DNA of 64,000 bases, taken from Saccharospirillaceae bacterium (GTDB lineage: Bacteria > Pseudomonadota > Gammaproteobacteria > Pseudomonadales > Natronospirillaceae). Within the stretch, counting starts at the first letter, position 1, and each line of letters opens with the position of its first letter. The stretch lies in assembly GCA_007116635.1 (NCBI GenBank), contig SKIB01000027.1, positions 1 through 64,000 on the forward strand, read 5' to 3'. Shown one piece after another: positions 46,468 to 49,266 of the stretch. The position numbers and the translations under genes are program-made. Under the pieces are notes generated by a model. That model did no database searches. It was not told where the DNA came from and saw only the letters and a list, made by a program, of their open reading frames with translations.

Positions 46468-46542
46468 TGGCTGGGCTGCCAGGATTCGAACCTGGGAATG
46501 GCGGGATCAAAACCCGCTGCCTTACCGCTTGGCGACAGCCCA
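46468..46542 (-). tRNA. tRNA-Gln (UUG), copy 2
   Basis: A 75-base cloverleaf with encoded CCA. Acceptor stem TGGGCTG/CAGCCCA, anticodon stem GCGGG/CCCGC with loop TTTTGAT (anticodon TTG), and T arm CAGGTTCGAATCCTG. Its body is identical to the neighbouring copy. Confidence 0.97.
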
Positions 46543-46561
46543 AAAAGAAAGTAATAAAGGT

Positions 46562-46636
46562 TGGCTGGGCTGCCAGGATTCGAACCTGGGAATGGCGGGA
46601 TCAAAACCCGCTGCCTTACCGCTTGGCGACAGCCCA
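46562..46636 (-). tRNA. tRNA-Gln (UUG), copy 1
   Basis: Same 75-base sequence as the other copy, including the encoded CCA and anticodon TTG. The two are separated by 19 bases and form a tandem repeat with a 94-base period. Confidence 0.97.
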
Positions 46637-46642
46637 ACTGTG

Positions 46643-46719
46643 TGGTGGCTATGACGGGATTTGAACCTGTGACCCCAGCATTATGAGTGCTGTGCTCTAA
46701 CCAACTGAGCTACATAGCC
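46643..46719 (-). tRNA. tRNA-Met (CAU), elongator
   Basis: A 77-base tRNA with encoded CCA, very close to the E. coli elongator tRNA-Met: GGCTATG acceptor, TAGCTCAGTTGGTTAGAGC D arm, anticodon loop CTCATAA, GGTCACAGGTTCAAATCC variable and T arm. It is the first gene of the Met-Gln-Gln transcript. Confidence 0.97.
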
Positions 46720-46854: not shown

Positions 46855-47604
46855 TTAACCCTGTTGTTGTAGGATGACCAGTTGCTTAAAGGTTTTAGGA
46901 TGAGCAGACAGTATGCTCTGTTTGCCTTTTTGGGTCAGTGGGTGGCCGTTGGCCTGCCCAGTGATGGCGCCTGATTCCTGAAGCAGTAGGTTGATGCTGT
47001 CTTGGTTTAAGATTGATATGGCTTGGCTCAGGCTGGCATCGAAAATCCCGGCGGCAACCTGGCAGTGCATCAAAATTGGATTATCGTAACTGCTGTAGTT
47101 GAGCTCTGGCTGACTGGCTAGCCAGTCAGCCAGCTCAGAACTGCTGATTGCAAGGCGGAGTTCGCTAAGTTTTTCTGTAAAGCGGCAACGCAAACGACCA
47201 TCGTTCATTTGAGCGCCACGGCTGCGGCTAGCAGAAAAGTACTGTTCAAGATTAGGGAAGCTGATTAAACAATGTTCCAGTCTGCCTTTTTGATATTGGG
47301 CAATAGTAAAGGAGAGCTGGTGGCCACCACGTAAAAAATCATTGAGGCCACTGAAGCCGCCAATCTGCCAAAAGTTTTCCTGCTCTGCGGGGCAGTCAAG
47401 GTCATCGGTAATAATCTGTTGGTCAGGATAAGCCTTGCTGAGAATTTGACTGGCGCGGTCAAGGCAGTCGTCGATGCTGCGCGTGACTCGCTGTTGCATG
47501 GCGCTTGGGTTATCCTTATCGGCCTGCAGCTCGCGCTGTAAAAAAGTCATGGATTCAGAAATCACTCGCGCAGCGCGCAGTGCTATAGTAATGGTCGGTT
47601 GCAT
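46855..47604 (-). CDS. suhB: SuhB-like protein with degraded phosphatase site
   Basis: A 249-residue member of the inositol monophosphatase family, in the standard suhB place divergent from trmJ. The overall fold aligns (AARVISES start, YPDQQIITDD, RSRGAQMNDGRLR, VAAGIFDAS), but the metal site is lost. The E. coli SuhB ligands Asp84 and Asp87 of IDPLDGTTNF fall on Gly82 and Ser85 in QIGGFSGLNDF, and Glu67 is Asp67. Phosphatase activity is therefore unlikely. In E. coli SuhB has a separate role in the rRNA antitermination complex that does not need catalysis; that role could be what is kept here. Confidence 0.82.
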   Translation of the reverse strand: MQPTITIALRAARVISESMTFLQRELQADKDNPSAMQQRVTRSIDDCLDRASQILSKAYPDQQIITDDLDCPAEQENFWQIGGFSGLNDFLRGGHQLSFTIAQYQKGRLEHCLISFPNLEQYFSASRSRGAQMNDGRLRCRFTEKLSELRLAISSSELADWLASQPELNYSSYDNPILMHCQVAAGIFDASLSQAISILNQDSINLLLQESGAITGQANGHPLTQKGKQSILSAHPKTFKQLVILQQQG

Positions 47605-47684: not shown

Positions 47685-48434
47685 GTGCAGCAATTGGCAC
47701 ATATTCGTTTTGTGATGGTGGAAACAACCCATTCTGGTAATGTTGGTGCCTGCGCCAGGGCGATGAAAACCATGGGGTTGACGCGCTTGTCTTTGGTTAA
47801 CCCTCTTTGTCAGCTGGACGAACAAGCCTATGCCATGGCCAGTGGTGCAATTGATATTCTGGATAACATAGAGCGTTTTGACACCCTTGAACAGGCCATT
47901 GCCGATTGTCAGCTGGTGGTGGGTGCCAGTGCCCGTAGCCGTTCTTTGCCCTGGCCCATGCTAGATCCTGACGCTTTCGGAGCTGAGGTGATGAGTCAAG
48001 GTGGCCAGGTGGCGGTGCTTTTAGGGCGTGAGGCTAGTGGTTTAACCAATGAGGAGCTGGCGCTTTGTCATTATCATGTGCACATTCCTGCTAATCCAGA
48101 GTACAGCTCATTAAATGTGGCGGCAGCTGCGCAGTTGCTTGCGTGGGCTTGCCGCAGGCAGGCGCTGTTGAATCAAAGCGGTGTTCAGGCTGAGGCTTCG
48201 GCTGGTGATCTGGTGCCAATAGATGAATTGGCTAGTGCCAAGCAGTTGCAAAGTTTTTTTGATCATTGGCAGCGGCAGTTGGTTGAAATAGGCTTCTTGG
48301 ATCCCAATAACCCTAAACATCTGGTGACCAGGCTAAGGCGGTTCTTGATGCGCGCCAAGCCAGAAGCCAATGAAATCAATATCATGCGTGGTATTTTAAC
48401 CGAAACAGATAAAACCATTAAGGGTCGAAGATGA
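47685..48434 (+). CDS. trmJ: tRNA (cytidine/uridine-2'-O-)-methyltransferase TrmJ
   Basis: A 249-residue SPOUT methyltransferase. [26 protein letters not shown] opens the protein; the knot region shows [20 protein letters not shown] and [21 protein letters not shown]. It methylates the ribose of residue 32 in several tRNAs. The start is GTG 47685 with AAGGGGG (47674-47680) close by. The divergent suhB promoter region (47605-47684) is AT-rich and includes a T run and a short inverted repeat. cysE follows 13 bases downstream. Confidence 0.93.
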
Positions 48435-48447
48435 CCAGGGGCCAAAA

Positions 48448-49266
48448 ATGACTTGGTTGGCGCGAATTAAAGAAGACGTCGAGTCGGTTTTTCACCGTGA
48501 TCCAGCAGCGAGAAACTGGCTTGAGGTGTTGCTGAATTATCCCGGTCTGCATGCTCTGTTATTGCATCGGCTGGCACATCGTCTATGGTGCTGGCGTTTA
48601 AAGTTGTTGGCGCGTTTGATCTCAAGTGTTAGTCGCTTTCTAACCGGTGTCGAAATACACCCTGGTGCGAAAATTGGCCGACGATTTTTTATTGATCATG
48701 GCATGGGCGTGGTGATAGGTGAAACCGCCGAGATTGGCGATGACTGTACTCTTTATCATGGTGTGACTCTGGGTGGTACCAGTTGGCAGAAGGGTAAGCG
48801 CCACCCAACTTTAGAGCGGGGTGTGATCTGTGGTGCTGGTGCTAAGGTGCTGGGGCCTTTCACTGTGGGTGAGGGGGCGCGCATTGGCAGTAATGCGGTG
48901 GTGACCAAGGCCGTTCCTGCAGGCGCTACCGTGGTTGGGGTTCCTGGGAGGATCATCAAGCAGGTAGACAGGACGCAAAATAATGCCAAGGAACATATAG
49001 CCAAGCAATTTGGCTTTGATGCTTATGCAGTGGCAGACATGCCCGATCCAACTGCTCTGGCTATTAAAGCTTTGCTAGAGCACATGCATGCTACGGATGA
49101 GCGCATGGAATTGCTTTGCAAAGCACTGCAGTCTCTGGATGCGGATGTTGAGCTGCCCTGCAGTAAGCTAGATCAGGCTTCTTTTTCGTCCTTGATGGAT
49201 GTCCAGTCCAGCCAGAAATCAGAGCCTAAGAATAAGCCAGAGTCCAAGCAATCTGAATCGGACTAG
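48448..49266 (+). CDS. cysE: Serine O-acetyltransferase CysE
   Basis: A 272-residue SAT. The N-terminal helical part is followed by the left-handed beta-helix with hexapeptide repeats: [65 protein letters not shown] and [16 protein letters not shown]. The conserved His in IDHG and HGVTLGG are catalytic. It makes O-acetylserine for cysteine synthesis, which supplies the sulfur used by the desulfurases of the Fe-S operon nearby. The C-terminal 30 residues are Ser/Lys/Glu-rich and disordered. This is the same suhB/trmJ/cysE order as in Pseudomonas. Confidence 0.95.

Follow-up and report, generated by a model that had tools for sequence, protein, structure and literature searches.

In the present study, we analysed a 64,000-nucleotide stretch of DNA (the window) that encodes a SuhB protein lacking all four acidic metal ligands of the inositol monophosphatase (IMPase) active site. 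We consider it probable that this protein is a natural pseudoenzyme, which lost its phosphatase function and was retained as a Nus factor. The same ligand loss was found clade-wide, which goes beyond the single gene considered in the original prediction for this DNA. The contact element for the transcription factor NusA was conserved in the ligand-less proteins, and this pattern suggests that the transcription role, rather than the enzyme activity, was preserved by evolution.

Identity of the gene and predicted fold of the protein

The suhB reading frame starts with ATG and shows no interruption (Table 1). Its start is separated by 80 bases from the divergent trmJ gene, beyond which lies cysE, and both neighbours were identified by NCBIfam models. 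The arrangement in E. coli is equal, with suhB divergent from and adjoining trmJ, and the Pseudomonas locus has the same order. The suhB-trmJ adjacency was observed in most relatives and in 37/37 ligand-less orthologues. Downstream of suhB, two tandem tRNA-Gln(TTG) genes and one tRNA-Met gene were located at window positions 46468-46719 on the minus strand; the two minus-strand reading frames listed there start at TTG inside tRNA genes, and these starts are spurious.

Table 1. Features of the suhB locus in the window; residues expected at the ligand positions are numbered as in E. coli SuhB.
Feature	Position	Strand	Basis
suhB gene, ligand-less SuhB, 249 aa	46855..47604	-	ORF listing, neighbours, Pfam/NCBIfam, structure-sequence matches
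SuhB-type N-terminal signature MQPTITIALRAAR, residues 1-13	47566..47604	-	alignment
Asp67 where metal ligand Glu67 is expected	47404..47406	-	alignment
GGFSGLNDF (residues 82-90) replacing DPLDGTTNF; D84, D87 and T89 gone	47335..47361	-	alignment
Asn200 where metal ligand Asp212 is expected; WDxAAG reads LNQDSI	47005..47007	-	alignment
PKTFKQLV (residues 236-243), counterpart of the NusA-AR2 contact element R248/K251/L254 (Lys237, Lys240, Val243)	46876..46899	-	alignment; PMC6614801
trmJ, divergent neighbour marking the suhB locus	47685..48434	+	ORF listing, NCBIfam
cysE, serine O-acetyltransferase	48448..49266	+	ORF listing, NCBIfam

Within the N-terminal signature, Pro3 was present in 100% of the ligand-less SuhBs, 99% of the intact SuhBs and 10% of the paralogues. 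The protein scored 29.1 bits against Pfam Inositol_P, barely above the 27-bit cut-off, and its best NCBIfam model was PRK10757, with 49.9 bits against an equivalog cut-off of 332. The latter score indicated a divergent orthologue that would get no automatic name. The top sequence matches among solved structures were Nus factors, namely the SuhB proteins from Pseudomonas and E. coli, and P. aeruginosa SuhB (8wip, 8wdq, 9j90) was the best match by both sequence and Foldseek. The Pseudomonas SuhBs differ from the window protein in that their consensus keeps DPLDGTTNF.

An AlphaFold (AF2) model was built from an input alignment with a single Saccharospirillum SuhB and a further 21 SuhBs, most of them from Pseudomonas; its mean pLDDT was 69.7, with low confidence in the last third and weak support past residue 214. 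The model aligned with 9j90_A (P. aeruginosa SuhB) at Z 19.6 and rmsd 3.7 over 234 residues, and with 6tqn_T, the SuhB of the rrn antitermination complex, at Z 19.2 and rmsd 3.8 over 227 residues. In VIA-align, many IMPases fell between Z 20 and 18. Since other IMPases score about as high as SuhB, the identity of the protein as SuhB is carried by synteny, N-terminus and sequence, and not by fold. The model nevertheless predicts an IMPase fold. By its position, its N-terminal signature and this predicted fold, the window protein is SuhB, and on the sequence comparisons it is an orthologue remote from the known SuhBs. The standard suhB position given in the original prediction was borne out by the identified neighbours.

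Loss of the metal site in the window protein and in eight families of the order

To describe the active site, we numbered the ligands as in E. coli SuhB and took the roles of individual residues to be those of established IMPase knowledge. All four acidic metal ligands are replaced in the window protein (E67D; D84G, as Gly82; D87S, as Ser85; D212N, as Asn200), and the catalytic Thr89 is Leu87. The replacement of both DPLDG aspartates and the change of Glu67 to Asp had been noted earlier and were confirmed, whereas the losses of the fourth ligand and of Thr89 had been missed. Six further positions in the active-site region, which hardly vary among intact SuhBs, have also been lost (K34, D44, E68, G156, E205 and W211).

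We then surveyed SuhB using the best match from 114 of the 115 genomes of the order; the SuhB counts exclude six matches that were partial, fused or not of the SuhB type. The results indicated that ligand loss occurred in all sampled genomes of eight families (37/37), none of which has all four ligands. The affected families (genomes) were f1 (22), f6 (2), f19 (3), f26 (2), f36 (2), f37 (2), f38 (2) and f44 (2), where f1 is Saccharospirillaceae as judged by one member genome, G014. One ligand was retained in 23 of these proteins, two in 11 and none in 3, the window protein included. In the other families of the order, all four ligands were present in 71/71 SuhBs. Because the ligands were lost in every sampled genome of eight families and kept in every SuhB elsewhere in the order, the ligand loss is confirmed as real and well beyond chance or sequencing error. 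The residues kept among the 37 ligand-less SuhBs were E67 (3%), D84 (38%), D87 (19%), T89 as T or S (5%) and D212 (62%), while the same five positions were 100% conserved in intact SuhBs and in 30 IMPase-family paralogues. Of the five active-site residues inspected, Glu67 and Thr89 showed the most uniform loss. Given these replacements, the window SuhB has probably lost Mg2+-dependent inositol-phosphate phosphatase activity.

Other genes of the IMPase family were also considered. A search for a second intact IMPase gene had been proposed, and an intact IMPase-like gene was found in the window genome beside carA (contig C73), together with a CysQ-like gene (C18). In this bacterial family, the IMPase-like paralogues, such as the C73 protein, share the Pfam family Inositol_P with the window SuhB but differ from it in carrying all metal ligands and in lacking the MxP start and K248/K251. 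In at least four relatives (G002, G010, G013 and G018), the IMPase family consisted of the ligand-less SuhB and a CysQ-type protein only, three of the four CysQs scoring slightly below the equivalog cut-off. Judged by this gene content, inositol monophosphatase activity seems dispensable in these four genomes. In line with this, the defects of E. coli suhB mutants are independent of IMPase activity (PMC6614801, PMC4807359).

The NusA-contact element and the rRNA leaders

Previous work has reported that E. coli SuhB binds the AR2 domain of NusA and that the KL251/254AA mutation cuts the affinity more than 1000-fold (Huang et al. 2019, PMC6614801). In the window protein, K251 is kept as K240, and L254 is conservatively changed to V243. 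Across the ligand-less SuhBs, a basic residue was found at 248 in 100% and at 251 in 97%, and a hydrophobic residue at 254 in 100%. The 30 paralogues from the same bacterial family, all with intact ligands (100%), showed the opposite pattern, with K/R248 in 3%, K/R251 in 3% and a hydrophobic residue at 254 in 20%. This double dissociation of metal ligands and AR2 contact is the strongest sequence evidence, and it suggests a retained Nus role. One exception at position 251 was G007, the closest sampled relative of the window, which has Met there.

The partners of SuhB were examined in the same lineages. A full AR2 domain was present in 28/28 NusAs sampled from the affected families, the window genome among them. 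Upstream of 16S in relatives, we observed boxA-like sites together with boxC-like (GTGTGGGC) sites; in f36 and f37 the boxA matched GCTCTTTAACA exactly, and Saccharospirillaceae had variants, e.g. GATCTTTAACA. No 16S gene was found in the 146 contigs of the window genome. Three exact GCTCTTTAACA matches in that genome were rejected as its own boxA, as they stand outside any boxC-like context and with no 16S.

Taken together, the window SuhB resembles E. coli SuhB in its trmJ adjacency, predicted fold, MxP N-terminus, and basic 248/251 and hydrophobic 254 positions. The two differ in that the E. coli protein retains every ligand and works as an IMPase, although this activity is dispensable, whereas all four acidic ligands and R184 are missing from the window protein. 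The loss of R184 was found in 37/37 ligand-less SuhBs. Arg184 lies at the dimer core of E. coli SuhB. In a 2007 JBC paper on R184A, the R184I change reportedly eliminated both RNA-polymerase sensitivity and the ability to complement in E. coli, and it reportedly disturbs the interaction with RNA polymerase. With R184 lost, the interface may differ from, or be remodelled relative to, that of E. coli.

By analogy with E. coli SuhB, we infer a binding and antitermination function for the window SuhB. The protein would bind NusA AR2 and the boxA/boxC RNA of the nascent rRNA leader, would help to load NusB/NusE, and would in this way protect and chaperone rRNA synthesis.

Selection, history and alternative explanations

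To place the loss on the species phylogeny, a tree of 63 taxa was built from NusA, IF2 and TrmJ. Seven of the eight affected families formed one clade (SH-aLRT 93), and f44 was placed elsewhere. A tree constraining all eight families together was not rejected (AU p 0.249), so two independent losses within the order, as the unconstrained tree suggests, are not claimed. The loss is old and occurred at least once within the order. The surviving ligand varies by lineage, as would be expected from an early release of the catalytic constraint followed by separate erosion of the site.

Outside the order, two ligand-poor proteins with an MQP start were found in two further gammaproteobacterial families, L396 in G255, which has a 1.1 Mb genome, and L397 in G136. 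It is probable that ligand loss occurred again in these other orders. The G136 protein is without the whole K251 AR2-contact element; despite this, the NusA of G136, like that of G255, has a C-terminal domain resembling AR2, and the presence of AR2 was therefore rejected as a marker of SuhB status. A class-wide profile of ligand-less SuhBs was likewise rejected as a discriminator because intact SuhBs score high too: 29 of 30 loci from the profile search had an intact motif and the remaining one was the window, after which the low scorers were inspected singly. In a separate family, f14, no SuhB-type match (MxP, trmJ-linked) was found in genomes G034, G075 and G107 (98-99% complete), and SuhB may be absent from them. 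The f14 matches (L227, L224 and L226) were IMPase paralogues only, and NusA there has an AR2-like C-terminus.

The dN/dS of suhB was 0.01-0.16 in nine of ten pairs of genomes, each pair taken from one affected family, and 0.31 in the tenth (G014/G016). Wherever trmJ was also computable for a pair, its dN/dS lay close to that of suhB. In these relatives, suhB is thus not decaying and is under purifying selection. Between families, SuhB identity was 28.6% in the affected families versus 57.5% in the intact ones, while TrmJ (50.1 versus 51.0) and NusA (67.7 versus 69.2) showed little of this difference. Fast long-term divergence combined with low dN/dS is the pattern that release of the active site would produce under continued selection. 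The clade also shares new residues (E. coli numbering) at A225 (78%), G228 (86%) and P234 (92%), which are partly present in f44 too and hint at a remodelled surface. On a broader proposal, catalysis was lost in the ancestor of the seven families and again in other gammaproteobacterial lineages, which would amount to a repeated natural conversion of a metabolic enzyme into a dedicated rRNA-transcription factor with an interface remodelled at 225, 228 and 234; we regard the case for and against it as evenly balanced.

We weighed three other explanations. The first, which we consider unlikely, is that both the phosphatase and the Nus roles were lost and that the protein acquired a new binding function, the C-terminal element being retained on structural grounds. 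The fast divergence, the lost R184 and the new conserved residues would fit this explanation, but the AR2-contact residues persist in 36 or 37 of the 37 proteins and K/R251 in so few ligand-bearing paralogues that the element is not general to the fold; moreover, NusA AR2 and the boxA/boxC-like leaders are retained, and the locus yielded no partner gene that would serve such a function. Very improbable is a phosphatase that is still metal-dependent through a rearranged site: although some relatives have one or two ligands, e.g. D84 and D212, and Asp67/Asp68 of the window protein lie close to the old site, the clade shares no substitute acidic motif, and K34 and the five further residues named above are missing too. 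A decaying pseudogene or assembly artefact, already disfavoured, is the least credible of all, for although the window genome is fragmented and its SuhB diverges more than any other member of the family (27.7 bits, Pfam), the reading frame is uninterrupted, eight families share the loss across 37 genomes, of which several are single-contig, and dN/dS is low in relatives.

The points against a pseudoenzyme retained as a Nus factor are the loss of R184, the fast divergence, the Met of G007, the higher dN/dS of G014/G016 and, outside the order, the missing AR2-contact element of the G136 protein. The original prediction had suggested that the protein may have kept its non-catalytic role alone and that loss of the Nus-contact residues as well would refute this; we found the NusA-AR2 element kept (K240/V243), and, with the ligands gone, purifying selection in relatives and NusA AR2 retained, the sequence evidence supports that reading, in which the Nus role itself is inferred.

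In the open-access papers covered by our search, we found no earlier description of a naturally catalytically dead SuhB. E. coli SuhB is already known not to need catalysis; a clade that has discarded the metal site appears to be new. Why SuhB retains an IMPase site despite its role in rRNA transcription has been a question since catalysis proved dispensable in E. coli, and a clade that dropped the site but kept the partner contact represents a separation of the two roles by evolution. The ligand-less SuhBs provide a ready catalysis-free set with which the surfaces important to the rRNA antitermination complex can be mapped, and the annotation 'inositol monophosphatase' is probably wrong across a whole gammaproteobacterial branch.
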